DNA of 64,000 nucleotides, from contig NC_016631.1 in NCBI RefSeq assembly GCF_000178955.2, positions 434,001 through 498,000 on the forward strand, in the 5' to 3' direction. The DNA comes from Granulicella mallensis MP5ACTX8. Lineage in GTDB: Bacteria > Acidobacteriota > Terriglobia > Terriglobales > Acidobacteriaceae. Numbering within the stretch: position 1 is the first letter of the stretch; every line of letters begins with the position of its first letter. Below the pieces are notes generated by a model that saw only the letters and a program-made list of their open reading frames with translations, searched no databases and was not told where the DNA came from. The position numbers and the translations under genes were made by a program. Shown piece by piece: positions 3,551 to 36,574 of the stretch.

Positions 3551-4717
3551 ATGTCAGAGCAGAATGTAATGGACGTTCCGTCGCATCAGGCGGCGGACGA
3601 CTTCGACGGTGGCGATTTCGGCAACGACTTCGGCAGCAACGACAGCAGCGAAAACGGTAACAATGGAGCGTCTGCCCCTCCCGGCATGGGACTGAGCAAG
3701 AGCAGCCGCCGCCGCCGCCGCAAGCGGAAGATTAAAGTTGCAGGTGTTGATGGCGTGGTCGCGGCCGACGGCGAAGGTTCGCCGGTGCCGGTCGTTCCCA
3801 TCGTGATGGAAGGCGAGAGCCTTGCCCTCGCCGCCGCCGTTGCGCCGCAACAACAACCCCAGCAGCCGCGCAAGCAAAACCAGAACAGCCAGGGCGGTCA
3901 AAGCCAGGGCGCTGGCCAGCCGCAGGGCCAGGGACCCGGCGCCAAGCGCTGGAAGAAGAAGTTCCGCGATCGCGAACGCCGTCCAGGCCGCAGCGAAAAC
4001 CCCGGCAACGACTTTCGCGCAGAGGCCCCCGCCAGCACCGGCCAGAGCAACGGCTATCGTCCGGACAACTTCGGCAATGGTGGTGGTTTCAAACGCAAGG
4101 GCAAGAGTGGCGGCGGTCAGCAGCAGCGCAAAGAGCGCGGCTTTGTTGGTCCGATGGACCACAGCTACCGCGAAGTGAATGGCAACTTTGCAGACGGCCC
4201 ACCCTCGACGATTCAGATGCACTCCAACGGCCGGCGTGGAGGCCATCGCCATCAGGGTGATTCGCAGCCCATCGACCACTCGATGCCGCGTCCGATCCCG
4301 ATCCCCGAGGATGCACAGACGCACATCTATTTCTTCATCGAAGAGCTCTTCTTCATCGCGAAGATTCAGGAGACGGCACGCAAGCAGGGAGTCAAGGTTG
4401 CATTCCTCAAGAACGATAAAGAGGCGATTGCGGCACTGACCAGCGGCGGCGATGAGAACAAGCCTGCTCTGATCGTCTTCGACCTGAACAACGCGAACGC
4501 CAAGCCGCTCACGCTGATTCCTAAGCTCAAGACCAAGCTGAAGCGCTCGGTATCGATCGTGGGATTCCTCTCGCATCTGCAGGGCGACCTCAAGGCCAAG
4601 GCTGTAGAGGCTGGCTGCGATGCGGTCATGCCTCGCGCAGCATTCTCTCAGAACCTGCCGAATCTTCTGCGGAGATACAGCGTCGAAGAGGGCGAGGAAG
4701 TTAACTACAACTACTAG
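3551..4717 (+). CDS. Basic low-complexity protein with C-terminal receiver-like domain
   Basis: A 388-residue protein with no assigned role. Residues 1-250 are low complexity: an Asp/Gly/Asn-rich start, an Arg/Lys block (RRRRRKRKIKV), Gln/Gly/Pro repeats, and scattered basic patches of the kind found in RNA- or DNA-binding tails. From about residue 254 to the end there is a compact alpha/beta domain resembling a response-regulator receiver. LIVFDLNNANA puts an Asp at about residue 311 where the phospho-acceptor would be, and SIVGFLSHL and AGCDAVMPRAAF follow in the usual order. I cannot see a full acidic pocket, so it may be a pseudo-receiver. The ATG at 3551 was chosen because AAGGGGA lies just upstream. 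No kinase or output domain is nearby. Confidence 0.7.
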   Translation: MSEQNVMDVPSHQAADDFDGGDFGNDFGSNDSSENGNNGASAPPGMGLSKSSRRRRRKRKIKVAGVDGVVAADGEGSPVPVVPIVMEGESLALAAAVAPQQQPQQPRKQNQNSQGGQSQGAGQPQGQGPGAKRWKKKFRDRERRPGRSENPGNDFRAEAPASTGQSNGYRPDNFGNGGGFKRKGKSGGGQQQRKERGFVGPMDHSYREVNGNFADGPPSTIQMHSNGRRGGHRHQGDSQPIDHSMPRPIPIPEDAQTHIYFFIEELFFIAKIQETARKQGVKVAFLKNDKEAIAALTSGGDENKPALIVFDLNNANAKPLTLIPKLKTKLKRSVSIVGFLSHLQGDLKAKAVEAGCDAVMPRAAFSQNLPNLLRRYSVEEGEEVNYNY

Positions 4718-4721
4718 GAAA

Positions 4722-4812
4722 CAGGAAGTAGCAAACAGGAAACAGTTAAAGATAGAGGCCGCCGAGTGATCGGCGGCCTTTGTTGTTGCTGTTTCCTGTT
4801 TGCTGTTTCCTG
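4722..4812 (+). terminator. Terminator hairpin nested in a 24-bp inverted repeat
   Basis: The inner stem is AGGCCGCCGA/TCGGCGGCCT (4756-4779), followed by TTTG; it ends the preceding gene. It is framed by an outer inverted repeat, 4722-4745 against 4789-4812, matching at 22 of 24 positions and built from the unit AAACAGGAAACAGC. The whole could form one extended hairpin. Confidence 0.8.
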
Positions 4813-4926
4813 CTTCAGCGTGCTGCAAAATATTTCGGCGAATATCTGCAACGATGACGGCCTCTGGATCACTACCTTCCATACGAGCCGGACTCATGAA
4901 GTCCGAACCCTCGAAGGAGTTTCGTC

Positions 4927-10855: not shown

Positions 10856-12949
<2,094 letters not shown>

Positions 12950-32560: not shown

Positions 32561-33661
32561 TTGAATATTCCGCAACTTACAGATTTCACTGAGGCATCTC
32601 TGGATGCCGCCTTCGCCGCTGTTCGCAGCGAAGCTGACGCCACGGTAGCCGCTCCCGGCTTCGACGCCGAGCAGTTCCGTCTGGAATGGCTGGGCCGCAA
32701 GCAGGGTCACCTGAAGGCGATCTCCGATGCGTGGCTCAAAGCCGCGCCACCCGAGGCGAAGAAACTCATCGGCCAGCGCTTCAACGCGCTCAAGGAGCAG
32801 ATCGAAGGCTCCCTGGCTTCGGCCGGCACGGCGGAGACCAAGCCTGCAGCAGCGGGGCTGGACGTCACTCTGCCCGGCAGCGCACAGCGCCTCGGGGTTG
32901 AGCATCCGCTGGTCAGGACAATGGCCGAGATCGTCGGAGTCTTCCAGCGCATGGGCTACTCCGTGGGCCTGGGGCCGGAGGTCGAGAGCGACTTCTACAA
33001 CTTCGAGAGCCTGAACTTTCCGCCGAACCATCCGGCCCGCGATACGCAGGACACCCTGGTCGTCGCCGAGCAGGAGGGCAAGCCGCTACGCGAGCGTCTG
33101 CTGATGCGCACGCACACCTCCCCGGTACAGATTCGCTCCATGCTGGAGCAGGCTCCGCCGCTACGGCTGGTGATTCCGGGCAAGGTGCATCGCAACGATG
33201 CCGCCGACGCCACACACTCGCCGGTCTTCCACCAGGTCGAGGGTCTGTGTGTGGATACGAACATCACCTTCAGCGACCTGAAGGGCACGCTCGACCACGC
33301 GATGAAGGCCTTTTTCGGCTCCGCGGTCAAGACGCGCTTCTTCCCGTCGTTCTTTCCGTTCACCGAGCCCAGCGCGGACGTGCAGATCTCGTGCATCTTC
33401 TGCGGTGGCAAGGGCTGCCGCAAGTGCAAGCACTCGGGCTGGATCGAGCTGCTGGGCTGCGGCATGGTGGACCCTGCGGTATTCGAGGCAGTAAATAAGC
33501 GCCGCATCGAACTGGGCCGCGACCCGGTCTATGACACGCGCCGCATCAGCGGCTTCGCCTTTGGCATGGGCGTCGACCGCATCGCCATGATGAAGTACGG
33601 CATCTCAGACATCGGTCTCCTGTACTCCGGAGACATGCGCTTTTTGGAGCAGTTCGCTTGA
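32561..33661 (+). CDS. pheS: Phenylalanyl-tRNA synthetase alpha subunit
   Basis: A 366-residue catalytic subunit of PheRS, which charges tRNA-Phe as an alpha2-beta2 enzyme in the cytoplasm. An N-terminal coiled-coil (about 1-90) precedes the class II catalytic core: motif 1 region VEHPLVRTMAEIVGVFQRMG, then GPEVESDFYNFESLNFP, motif 2 GKVHRNDAADATHSPVFHQV, and motif 3 GFAFGMGVDRIAMMKYGI. It starts at TTG with TAAGGA eight bases upstream. It ends in TTGA, overlapping the possible TTG start of the four-helix-bundle gene, which separates it from pheT. Confidence 0.97.
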   Translation: MNIPQLTDFTEASLDAAFAAVRSEADATVAAPGFDAEQFRLEWLGRKQGHLKAISDAWLKAAPPEAKKLIGQRFNALKEQIEGSLASAGTAETKPAAAGLDVTLPGSAQRLGVEHPLVRTMAEIVGVFQRMGYSVGLGPEVESDFYNFESLNFPPNHPARDTQDTLVVAEQEGKPLRERLLMRTHTSPVQIRSMLEQAPPLRLVIPGKVHRNDAADATHSPVFHQVEGLCVDTNITFSDLKGTLDHAMKAFFGSAVKTRFFPSFFPFTEPSADVQISCIFCGGKGCRKCKHSGWIELLGCGMVDPAVFEAVNKRRIELGRDPVYDTRRISGFAFGMGVDRIAMMKYGISDIGLLYSGDMRFLEQFA

Positions 33662-34080
33662 GAGCGAGTCAGCGAGTCAGCGAGTCAGCAAGTCAGCGAA
33701 GGACACGGCACTTCAGAGACTTGATTGCCTGGCAGAAGGCAATGAGCCTGGCGAAGAATGTCTATACGCTGACCGCAGTCTTTCCGGACTCTGAACGATA
33801 CGGCCTCATCTCTCAGATGAGACGAGCTGCTGTCTCAGTGCCAAGTAATATCGCGGAAGGCCACGGGCGTTTGACAGATCGCAGTTTTCGACTCTTCCTC
33901 GCGCAGGCGCGTGGGTCCTTGTTTGAATTAGAGACACAGTTGGAACTCGCAATCGATTTGAAGTTTTGTGTTCGGGAAGTGGCCGCCGCCCTGCTTGCAG
34001 ACTGCAATGAAGTGGCACGCATTATCAATGGGCTACTGAAAACACTGGAGGAAGAAAACGGCGCAGCCGCAAACAGCTGA
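33658..34080 (+). CDS. Four-helix-bundle protein of the S23/IVP (23S rRNA intervening sequence) family, inserted between pheS and pheT
   Basis: A 140-residue protein. Residues 20-130 match the S23/IVP four-helix-bundle family: HFRDLIAWQKAMSLAKNVY, then YGLISQMRRAAVSVPSNIAE, GHGRLTDRSFRLFLAQARG and LFELETQLELAIDL. The first 15 residues ([12 protein letters not shown]) are translation of the AGCGAGTC octamer array, as the reading frame starts at a TTG overlapping the pheS stop. No ATG precedes the conserved region, so coupling to pheS or another alternative start must be used. Family members are found in rRNA intervening sequences and, as Avd, in diversity-generating retroelements, where they bind nucleic acid. 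The gene and its 36-bp inverted ends form a discrete cassette in an otherwise conserved operon. Function is unknown. Confidence 0.85.
   Translation: MRASQRVSESASQRRTRHFRDLIAWQKAMSLAKNVYTLTAVFPDSERYGLISQMRRAAVSVPSNIAEGHGRLTDRSFRLFLAQARGSLFELETQLELAIDLKFCVREVAAALLADCNEVARIINGLLKTLEEENGAAANS
33663..33698 (+). repeat. Left 36-bp inverted repeat of the four-helix-bundle cassette (AGCGAGTC octamers)
   Basis: Four tandem octamers (three AGCGAGTC, one AGCAAGTC) plus AGCG. The reverse complement of 34075-34110 matches it at 34 of 36 positions. It starts two bases after the pheS stop codon. Confidence 0.9.
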
Positions 34081-34110
34081 CTTGCTGACTTGCTGACTCG
34101 CTGACTCGCT
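34075..34110 (-). repeat. Right 36-bp inverted repeat of the four-helix-bundle cassette
   Basis: Read on the minus strand: two AGCGAGTC, two AGCAAGTC, then AGCT. It includes the stop codon of the four-helix-bundle gene and ends four bases before the pheT ATG, so it occupies the place where the pheT ribosome site would lie. Confidence 0.9.
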
Positions 34111-34114
34111 ATTT

Positions 34115-36235
34115 ATGAATATCCTGACGAAGTGGTTGCGGTCCTATCTTCCTGAACTGCCTGTTGACGACAGGCAGCTCGCTGAAGACCTTACGCTACG
34201 CGGTATTGCTGTTGAAGGTGAGTTCGACGCCTCTTGTGGCGGTGCGCGCTACGAGATGGACATCACGACCAACCGTGTCGATGCGATGAACCATTACGGC
34301 GTCGCACGCGAAGCTGCGGCAATCTACGATGTGGCGCTTGCACCGCTGAATGAAGGAACTGCCGCCCCCATCGTTGAAACCGTTGCAGGTGAAGGTTTCC
34401 CGGTACGTATCGAGGCGCGCGACCTATGCGGACGCTTTACCGCTCGCGTGATTCGCGGCGTTACGGTTGGTCCTGCAAAGGGTCTTGTCGCCGAGTACTT
34501 CGCCGCGCTGGGGCAGAAGCCGATCTCCGCTCCGGTGGATGTGACGAACTTCGGCTGGCTCGCGATGGGGCAGCCTACGCACGTATTCGATCTCGACACC
34601 CTTGAGGGCGGCATCGTCGTCCGCCGTGCGAAGGCCGGCGAGAAGCTGCGGCTGCTCGACGGCACCGAGCGCACGCTCGTGGCGGACGACCTGGTGGTTG
34701 CCGACGAAAAGAAGGCGCTGGGCTTGGCGGGTGTGATGGGTGGATGGGACTCGCGCGTAACCGAGACCACGAAGAACATCCTCGTCGAGGCCGCCTGGTT
34801 CGATCCGGCGACGATTCGCGCGAGTTCGCGCCGTCACGGGCTGCATACCGACGCGAGCCATCGCTTTGAACGCGGGGCGGACTTCAATGCCGCGCCGCTG
34901 GGAAACCATCTGGTTACACGCCTGGTCGTCGAGCAATCGGGCGGCGAGGTTGTTGGCCCGCTTGTGGATGTGATCGTCCCGGAGCTGCAGGCAAAGACCT
35001 CCGAGCGCGCTCCGATTGTGCTTCGCGTCAGCGAGGTGCAGCGGCACCTGGGCACGACACTTGAAGATGCCACGTGGAGCGGTGGTGAGAACACCTCGGG
35101 GCTAAGTGAAAACGTCGTCGAGCAATATCTCGGAGCCCTGGGTTGCGTGCTTACGCCGACGGGTGCGGTCGCAGGCGAGTACGGCGTCCAGCTGCCGAGC
35201 TGGCGTCTCGACCTCGAACGCGAGATCGACCTCATCGAAGAGGTGGCGCGCGTCTACGGCTACAACAAGTTTGCCGACACGCTGCCCACGTTTGCCGGCA
35301 CGGTCGTCGAACAGCCGCACGCGGAGCAGGAGCACACGATTCGCGAGACCCTGCGCTCGCTCGGCTTCAGCGAGGCGATCTCCAGCACGTTTACCTCCGC
35401 CGAAGAGGCCGCGACGTTCGGCGATGCGAAGACCGGTGCGGTGGCGATGGGCAACCCTCTCAGCGAAGAGGCCGGAATGCTGCGGCCGTCGCTGGTGCCG
35501 GGTATGGCCACGATGCTGGCTCACAACCTGCATCGCGACGTAACGGATGTGCGGTTGTTCGAGATGGGCACGGTCTTTACCGGATCGACCGCCGAGGTGA
35601 GGGAACACACAGGACTCGCTCTGGGCGCGACCGGAGCGGCTGTTGCTACTTCGTTATACGGCGCGCAGGATGCGTTGTTCTACGAGATGAAGGGCGCCAT
35701 TGAGCGTCTGCTCGCAAAGTTTGCAGGGTCTGTGCGGTTCGACGCCGAATCGCTTCCGGCATGGATCGAGCCCGGACGCGGAGCGCGAGCTCTGCTGGAG
35801 GGCGAAGTCGTCGCGGTCTTCGGAGAACTGAGCGCGGCCGAGTCGCAGCGCCGCAAGCTGCGCCAGACCTGCGTATTTGCCGAGGTCCGCGCGGAACTCC
35901 TCTTGCTCCGTACGCTGCGCCAGCCGGTCTCGCGGGAGATCTCGCGCTACCAGGCTGTCGAGCGGGACTTCTCGTTTGTCTTCCCGGACGCCGTGCGCTG
36001 GGAGCAGATCGCGGAAGCCTTGCGTGGCCTGAACATCGCCGAGACGCAGCGCATCGCGCCGGTGGAGATCTTCCGCGACGCCAAGGGCAAGGCGGTTGCT
36101 GCCGGACACTACTCGGCCCTGGTGCGAGTGGTGTTCCAGTCGAACGAGCGCACGCTGACCGAGGAAGATCTTGGCGGTTGGTCGGAGAAGACGGTGAGTG
36201 CGTTGGTTGGTTTGGGTGGAGCACAACGCGCGTAG
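34115..36235 (+). CDS. pheT: Phenylalanyl-tRNA synthetase beta subunit, short form without the EMAP-type tRNA-binding domain
   Basis: A 706-residue beta subunit of PheRS. The start NILTKWLRSYLPELPVDDRQ is the normal N-terminus. Residue 40 (VEGEFDASCGGARYEMDITT) then jumps directly to the B1 domain (NRVDAMNHYGVAREAAAIYD), so the roughly 110-residue EMAP/OB-fold tRNA-binding domain of the usual 800-residue PheT is missing. The B3/B4 editing region (VTNFGWLAMGQPTHVFDLDT), B5 domain, catalytic-like core and C-terminal anticodon-binding domain (SRYQAVERDFSFVFPDAVRW) are all present. The last bases before the ATG belong to the octamer repeat and contain no Shine-Dalgarno site. The absence of frame breaks suggests a working gene. 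Confidence 0.95.
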   Translation: MNILTKWLRSYLPELPVDDRQLAEDLTLRGIAVEGEFDASCGGARYEMDITTNRVDAMNHYGVAREAAAIYDVALAPLNEGTAAPIVETVAGEGFPVRIEARDLCGRFTARVIRGVTVGPAKGLVAEYFAALGQKPISAPVDVTNFGWLAMGQPTHVFDLDTLEGGIVVRRAKAGEKLRLLDGTERTLVADDLVVADEKKALGLAGVMGGWDSRVTETTKNILVEAAWFDPATIRASSRRHGLHTDASHRFERGADFNAAPLGNHLVTRLVVEQSGGEVVGPLVDVIVPELQAKTSERAPIVLRVSEVQRHLGTTLEDATWSGGENTSGLSENVVEQYLGALGCVLTPTGAVAGEYGVQLPSWRLDLEREIDLIEEVARVYGYNKFADTLPTFAGTVVEQPHAEQEHTIRETLRSLGFSEAISSTFTSAEEAATFGDAKTGAVAMGNPLSEEAGMLRPSLVPGMATMLAHNLHRDVTDVRLFEMGTVFTGSTAEVREHTGLALGATGAAVATSLYGAQDALFYEMKGAIERLLAKFAGSVRFDAESLPAWIEPGRGARALLEGEVVAVFGELSAAESQRRKLRQTCVFAEVRAELLLLRTLRQPVSREISRYQAVERDFSFVFPDAVRWEQIAEALRGLNIAETQRIAPVEIFRDAKGKAVAAGHYSALVRVVFQSNERTLTEEDLGGWSEKTVSALVGLGGAQRA

Positions 36236-36269
36236 AGGGCATAGCGCTTTTAGCTTTTGTCGTTGCCTG

Positions 36270-36441
36270 TTTTTCGTCGTCATCCTGAGCGGTACGCGAA
36301 GGACCCCCGCATTGCGGGTTGCCACAGAAGATCGTACCCACCAAGAATGTGCGGGTACGATCTCGTGGCCGTCCCATGCGCCTTGGTGCCACCACAAAAT
36401 GTGGGGTTCCTTCGCCTACGGCTCAGGATGACGACGAAAAA
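36270..36441. repeat. Variant palindromic repeat with 21-bp perfect inverted ends
   Basis: TTTTTCGTCGTCATCCTGAGC at 36270-36290 is exactly reverse-complemented at 36421-36441. The outer ends share CGTCATCCTGAGC with family A, but the inside differs: nested hairpins around GATCGTACCCACC..GGGTACGATC and GGGGTTCCTTCGCC. It fills the gap between pheT and the ZapB-like gene. Confidence 0.88.
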
Positions 36442-36574
36442 CGGACAACAGCTAAGGCAAATACAACATAAAGGCATTCAAAAAGGTTCCCCCTCGAATT
36501 CCATGCCTCAAATCCACTACGCAAATCGCTATACTTCGACCTGATTTACTGTAAGTTCGGAGGCAACGGAAAAG

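Follow-up and report, generated by a model that had tools for sequence, protein, structure and literature searches.

What is a gene for a four-helix-bundle protein of the S23/IVP family doing at the junction of pheS and pheT, both essential genes in this soil bacterium? The question arises from a window of 64,000 nucleotides (nt), meaning the whole stretch of Granulicella mallensis MP5ACTX8 DNA analyzed here (NC_016631.1, positions 434,001 to 498,000), in which the two genes are separated by an S23 gene framed by inverted arrays of an octamer. An initial annotation, made from the sequence alone, had described this unit as looking like a small mobile or repeat-borne module with the octamers as its recognition ends. 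S23 proteins occur widely, but to our knowledge no function has been assigned to them. The reading that we favor, with a probability of roughly 0.55, is that the unit is a compact mobile or selfish element, built like the intervening sequences (IVSs) of 23S ribosomal RNA (rRNA) but located outside rRNA and acting at the DNA level, which would consist of one S23 gene between two inverted arms of short tandem repeats.

The identification of the gene as S23-type was borne out, as the protein scores above the family cut-offs of both PF05635 (128.8 bits, cut-off 33.8) and TIGR02436 (121.5 bits, cut-off 24), and its closest solved structure is 2gsc_A (XCC0516; E 2e-24). The S23 frame occupies the whole insert, whose sole Pfam matches are PF05635 and a sub-threshold match to bAvd. 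The flanking arrays have a period of 8 nt (Tandem Repeats Finder) and pair with each other over 35 nt, with 34 of 35 positions (97%) complementary, across a separation of 378 nt; the near-perfect inversion reported previously therefore stands, with this count in place of 34 of 36. The spacing of four bases from the right array to the pheT ATG is as described, but on the other side the first octamer follows the pheS stop after one base instead of two. Translation of the left array and the position of the S23 stop codon (34078-34080) inside the right array are both as first noted. In RNA folding, one long stem of about 35 base pairs closes the whole unit with the S23 frame in its loop, and the predicted fold is better than that of 100 out of 100 shuffled sequences (z -6.4); the corresponding DNA fold has a z of -5.3.

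Comparison with related genomes supports the view that the unit is an insertion into the pheS-pheT junction. The start of pheT was fetched in 27 of 28 genomes of the genus, with pheS within the same stretch in 16 and out of reach in 11. The empty site that the initial annotation had proposed to look for was found: pheS and pheT overlap by 4 nt at 11 of the 16 testable loci, the S23 unit is present at two (in the genome of the window, G000, a single contig of 6,237,577 bases, and in its near relative G003), and three carry other sequence. In one relative (G009) the empty junction is continuous exactly at the position of the unit. A second site, between rpoA and rplQ, holds an S23 gene in 8 of 24 testable genomes, with the left array at most about 10 bases from the rpoA stop. 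The proposal of a mobile module is thus upheld as far as insertion is concerned, and movement as a unit is what the comparison suggests rather than something observed. The features of the unit and related repeats in the window are collected in the table below.

Features of the S23 unit, its host genes and related arrays, in window coordinates
Feature	Position	Strand	Remarks
pheS	32561..33661	+	Pfam tRNA-synt_2d; host gene immediately 5'; its TGA and the S23 TTG start overlap
Left arm	33663..33699	+	About 4.6 copies of AGCGAGTC; translated as N-terminus of the S23 frame
S23/IVP four-helix-bundle gene	33658..34080	+	140 amino acids; TTG start overlaps pheS stop; PF05635, TIGR02436, 2gsc_A
Right arm	34076..34110	-	About 4.4 inverted copies; S23 stop codon inside
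Entire insert, by comparison with relatives in which the pheS-pheT junction is empty	33662..34114	+	453 nt
pheT	34115..36235	+	Pfam; host gene immediately 3'
Mini-element without S23	4717..4818	.	Inverted heptamer arms (GGAAACA/GCAAACA type) around a terminator-like GC hairpin
Solo array of the pheS-pheT octamer, without S23	12522..12556	-	Tandem Repeats Finder

To what extent such arms accompany S23 genes was assessed at 177 distinct, not independent, loci, comprising 50 from the genus, 79 from a named set and 48 from a phylum set. The genus loci represent 50 of 55 S23 matches, the excluded ones being the two halves of a broken third copy in G000 and three weak or partial matches of G005 and G027; one further locus (L142) was dropped as a duplicate of L040, and L122 and L125 look like one locus in two near genomes. 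Strong S23 matches are over-represented, because the 80 named loci were the best of at least 585 matches, and the 48 phylum loci, from 47 genomes, ranked highest among the matches listed. Arms reach the threshold at 125 of the 177 S23 loci, as compared with 391 of 31,152 swapped flank pairs, 11 of 1,001 shifted positions within the same loci and 3 of 197 other open reading frames (ORFs). Together with the fold of the pheS-pheT unit, these controls confirm that the arms are not a product of chance.

Of the 125 armed loci, 106 fit best to a period of 7 or 14 and 12 to a period of 8; the unit word varies between loci, even inside one genome. Among the genus loci, 29 of 50 are armed at the main threshold and 33 of 50 at a looser one, with words that include AGGGATT, AGGGTCC, AGAGATT, GGAAACA, and AGCGGAAC. 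In the named set, classified by record titles (n = 79), armed loci occur in Planctomycetota (8/9), Acidobacteriota (23/26), Bacteroidota (8/14), Bacillota (6/10), Verrucomicrobiota plus Kiritimatiellota (4/4), Pseudomonadota (3/8) and six smaller groups (5/7), while the one cyanobacterial locus, from one genome, has no arms. Twelve named genomes have arms at 17 of 30 S23 loci (several of which repeat loci of the named set) with several words in one genome, such as the four of G324. Collectively, these comparisons of sequence support the framing by inverted arrays as a general attribute of the S23 gene family, the word itself not being one. The idea of the octamer as a fixed recognition end is accordingly not supported, because the unit is mostly 7 nt long and differs between loci; of the expectation that S23 genes in relatives would share the arrays, the presence of arms held in general, and the same octamer recurs at one different site (L038, below). 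The arms also have a polarity. Read in the sense of the left arm, they contain 35% G and 16% C, with GG at 11.6% and CC at 1.6%, and AG exceeds CT at 104 loci, falls below it at 14 and equals it at 7.

Most armed loci have a similar position relative to their upstream neighbors. In 85 of 120, the left arm starts no more than 12 nt from the stop codon of an upstream co-directional frame of at least 70 codons, as against 156 of 2,360 random positions, and the right edge lies within 12 nt of the end of a convergent frame in 47 of 116. The build of the unit is that of rRNA IVSs. According to the available part of the published account, the Coxiella IVS is 428-444 nt long and has a terminal stem of 28 bp around a loop that holds an S23 frame; heptamers (GACAGAT) are repeated in tandem in its 5' region, the host transcript contains its sense strand, and RNase III cleaves it (PMC4990558). 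Like it, the present unit has complementary ends that form one long stem around an S23 frame and short tandem repeats, here octamers, at its 5' side; unlike it, the unit sits between protein genes instead of in a 23S rRNA helix, its host genes are intact without excision, and its arms consist of repeat arrays whose word varies between loci.

Since an IVS-like build points to a role in RNA, the arms might be selected as an RNA stem, whose cleavage by RNase III would free the S23 mRNA from the pheS and pheT mRNAs and protect the operon. The stem that closes the transcript around the S23 frame and the RNase III cleavage of the Coxiella IVS are consistent with such insulation, as is the presence, in 110 of 120 armed loci, of a long co-directional frame ending close to the left arm (at least 70 codons; some of these frames may not be genes). 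However, RNA tolerates G.U pairs and not A.C, and the mismatches between arms show no bias, with 122 G.U and 131 A.C in a comparison of limited power that assumes both arms mutate alike and excludes L040, L179 and L189. Per locus, 40 have an excess of G.U and 40 a deficit, and other settings give 184 versus 187 and 134 versus 141. Moreover, the mini-elements and solo arrays described below have no gene to free. We consider insulation at the RNA level unlikely; the lack of G.U bias suggests instead that pairing is kept as DNA, through arm-to-arm copying or recognition of a DNA hairpin.

That some process keeps the arms alike is suggested by how they change at shared sites. Groups of loci at the same site were defined by homology of both outer flanks, which yielded 22 loci in five groups. 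Across all 22, the fit of each arm to its own partner compared with that to the arms of other species was matched by none of 20,000 permutations. At the rpoA-rplQ site (8 loci) own arms score 17.8 versus 13.1 (427 of 20,000 permutations as good), and at an ABC-transporter site (6 loci) 20.1 versus 9.7 (55 of 20,000). Among pairs of S23 genes with homologous outer DNA and 50-60% protein identity, arms are shared in only 1 of 31. The protein, in contrast, is conserved: the ratio of nonsynonymous to synonymous substitution rates (dN/dS) is 0.06-0.10 in five of the six S23 pairs with estimable dS and about 0.2 in the little-diverged pair L001/L040, and dN is 0.08-0.2 at dS of at least 1 (ungapped codon counts; three more pairs are saturated), which shows that it is under purifying selection. 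Because the arms differ at shared sites while the S23 gene is conserved, the arms turn over faster than the gene, yet stay paired. Two further comparisons carry little weight. A mirrored order of variant units in the two arms scored higher in register in 60 of 80 cases; since the alignment itself set the register, this test is biased. Between G000 and G003 the pheS-pheT element is 98.2% identical and its flanks are 94.4% and 91.1% identical, but the windowed profile is uneven and indels make the ungapped dN and dS of pheS and pheT unreliable, so that no conclusion was drawn.

Arms also follow the kinship of the S23 proteins across sites. In a protein tree of 48 of the 50 genus loci (L050 and L052, both armless, were too short), twelve proteins form a clade with support of 100/99 in which none is armed even at the loosest threshold, and several of these genes adjoin what reads as pgk. 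Of the remaining 36, 33 are armed at the looser threshold. The sister of the pheS-pheT protein is that of L038 (G023), which is 71% identical and has the same octamer at a different site, behind a gene read as fabD. Among pairs at different sites, arms are shared in 5 of 12 with at least 70% protein identity, in 13% of 196 with 60-70%, and in about 1% below 50%. That arm sharing tracks S23 kinship across sites supports arms and gene traveling as a unit, and that it is incomplete among kin indicates that the word can change afterwards.

On this interpretation as a mobile element acting at the DNA level, the unit would enter tight junctions, of which the overlapping pheS-pheT junction is one, directly 3' of the stop of an upstream gene, leaving both host genes intact and being read with the host operon. 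A DNA-level process, either arm-to-arm copying or DNA-hairpin recognition, would keep the arms alike, so that the unit word could change with the arms staying complementary. The S23 protein would most likely act on its own arms, spreading or maintaining them, host replication or repair would do the chemistry, and arrays without S23 would be mini or decayed copies.

Several observations weigh against this interpretation. A Pfam scan of the insert found no transposase gene between the terminal inverted repeats, such as would define a classical insertion sequence, and likewise no integrase or reverse transcriptase. The trinucleotide TGA flanks the insert on both sides and could be a 3-base duplication or merely be needed by both genes; as it may be forced by pheS and pheT, a target-site duplication is unproven. 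Some units at rpoA-rplQ carry a GC hairpin between the left arm and the gene, and filled sites seem to lack the native hairpin that empty ones have (both by eye), so that entry there was probably not a clean cut-and-paste. Arms are below threshold at 52 of the 177 loci and at 13 of the 30 in the twelve named genomes. Matched arms are individually non-significant in the groups of 3, 3 and 2 loci, and within the pair L043/L066 each gene's arm fits the other's arms slightly better. S23 genes at the same site often group together in the tree, and much of the spread may therefore be vertical descent with loss. Finally, the octamer of the pheS-pheT unit occurs at 16 places in G000 (matches within 1 kb merged), with S23 at one and none at 15, which suggests that the arrays can exist independently of the gene; this genome has more solo arrays than S23 elements. 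The initial annotation had held that octamer arrays unassociated with such genes would argue for chance, and these arrays do exist in number, while the association of S23 genes with arms is still far above chance.

In G000, an inverted partner is near 5 of the 16 octamer places, the S23 place included, and for 13 of the 16 a homologous array is present in the loci fetched from G003. The octamer is held by 7 of the 28 genus genomes, all of which have S23 genes. The solo array in the window is conserved in G003 with a different copy number, and a further G003 array, missing in G000 (48 bases), lies in frame within a leucyl-tRNA synthetase-like gene. The mini-element in the window starts at the stop codon of the upstream ORF and has a DNA fold z of -8.5. 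At an ABC-transporter site whose flanks are 97% identical in the two genomes, G003 carries an S23 element with arms of AGAGAGT and G000 a gene-less mini-element with arms of AGGGATT; AGGGATT is also the word of the S23 element of G003 at rpoA-rplQ.

Mutation alone might account for such arrays, with slippage building the heptamers, template switching at quasi-palindromes keeping the arms alike, and the S23 gene a surviving bystander. The abundance of S23-less arrays, the variation of array copy number and presence between sister genomes, and the lack of strand bias among arm mismatches would all be expected from it. We nevertheless regard it as quite unlikely, since it leaves unexplained why arms occur at 125 of 177 S23 loci but at 3 of 197 other ORFs, why they follow S23 kinship across sites, and why AG exceeds CT on the gene strand of the left arm at 104 loci with the reverse at 14. 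A different possibility is that inverted heptamer pairs are host terminators or mRNA stabilizers behind stop codons, in which S23 genes are trapped cargo. The mini-element in the window, which encloses a terminator-like hairpin directly 3' of a stop codon, fits this, and the heptamer arrays of Xanthomonas, in the available part of their description, lie on average 28 nt from the 5' neighboring ORF (PMC4692102). A shared regulator would not, however, allow the word to differ between loci and, at one site, between sister species, and some arrays are in frame within coding genes (the leucyl-tRNA synthetase-like gene of L226 and a recG-like gene of L032); a host regulatory origin is in our view very improbable.

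The preferred reading as an S23-bearing mobile element places the unit among several described systems without matching any of them. Insertions in both 16S and 23S rRNA of bacteria of the Candidate Phyla Radiation contain S23/IVP ORFs, and so share the protein domain; they are located in rRNA, and the main text mentions neither inverted or tandem repeats nor heptamers (PMC11270868, available part). In contrast, an Rfam scan found no rRNA around S23 at any of 20 loci (from the 80 named), and the unit in the window is likewise outside rRNA. Heptamer arrays have been described in Xanthomonas, where there are 70 and 75 inverted pairs, and in Nostoc (PMC4692102), and TAACTGA repeats in Beggiatoaceae (PMC4679880). 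In the parts of these reports available to us, the arrays are likewise tandem 7-nt units, mostly intergenic, but they are described without an S23 gene, and the main texts never mention S23, four helix or 23S rRNA (PMC4692102, PMC4679880). Avd of diversity-generating retroelements is related to the S23 fold family, according to the accessible portion of one study (PMC10053308). The protein studied here has a weak bAvd match of 23.3 bits, below the cut-off of 40, and its locus has no reverse transcriptase. REP/REPIN sequences (repetitive extragenic palindromes) and miniature inverted-repeat transposable elements (MITEs) are small, inverted, gene-less dispersed copies that occur alongside gene-bearing ones, each family with one conserved palindrome. 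The gene-less copies described here are similar, and one unit word may have many of them per genome; they differ in that words vary and only the layout is common, in place of a conserved shared sequence.

Two candidate partner enzymes were tried and rejected. The initial annotation had pointed to a link with reverse transcriptases, for which we found no support: besides the sub-threshold bAvd score, 10 of the 19 S23-bearing genus genomes have no RVT_1 match, which speaks against a reverse transcriptase acting in trans as a general need. Two of these ten are less than 90% complete, and two others are 98% complete with 6 and 7 S23 matches. The sole RVT_1 match of G000 is at 913,493, about 445 kb from the pheS-pheT S23 gene at 467,715. 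A Y1 transposase of the RAYT type is not discriminating because it is found in 26 of 28 genomes; the two without it (67% and 84% complete) also lack S23.

Heptamer arrays and S23 ORFs in rRNA inserts were each known before. What appears to be new is that S23 genes located elsewhere than in rRNA have inverted heptamer arms: among the papers listed by an open-access search that did not cover most subscription papers or bioRxiv, none connected such genes to heptamer arrays, inverted or otherwise. S23 genes outside rRNA carry the stem and heptamers of rRNA IVSs, with words that vary from site to site and arms that match, which brings together three matters: the function of S23 proteins, the origin of rRNA IVSs and the heptamer arrays of many bacteria. 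Their own arms offer a candidate substrate for the S23 protein. A broader and doubtful extension is that S23 proteins generate or disseminate the tandem arrays of 7-8-nt units found across bacterial genomes, which would then form one class of mobile DNA with ends defined by layout and not by sequence. The polarity of the arms would fit a process in which a DNA site is opened and repeats are added to each end by templating: the G-rich strand points to the gene on either side, much as telomeric repeats would point to a break, and the two arms would share the word of that one event. If so, S23 elements, mini-elements and solo heptamer arrays would be one class with the rRNA IVS as its best known member.

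Several minor features of these loci were recorded in passing. The octamer arrays in frame within the recG-like gene (L032 1485-1516) and the leucyl-tRNA synthetase-like gene (L226 1003-1034) add SESASQRV-type residues, and behind the recG-like gene G003 has an S23 element (L032) where G000 has two toxin-antitoxin-like small genes (L068; by eye). Another octamer array lies at the junction of genes read as glyQ and glyS (L026, G000 2,213,317; by eye), a second synthetase pair, and L012 (G000 5,667,064-5,667,451) contains about 20 consecutive octamers followed by a hairpin repeat and an inverted partner array. The third S23 copy of G000 is split into two overlapping fragments (5814713-5815023; L003 and L004) with a long palindrome beside them. 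Two Acido-Lenti-1 RNAs are near the S23 gene of a KSB1 bacterium (L165 2974-3019 and 3547-3592). Within the window, an imperfect long inverted repeat was seen by eye 3' of pheT, at about 36260-36450.

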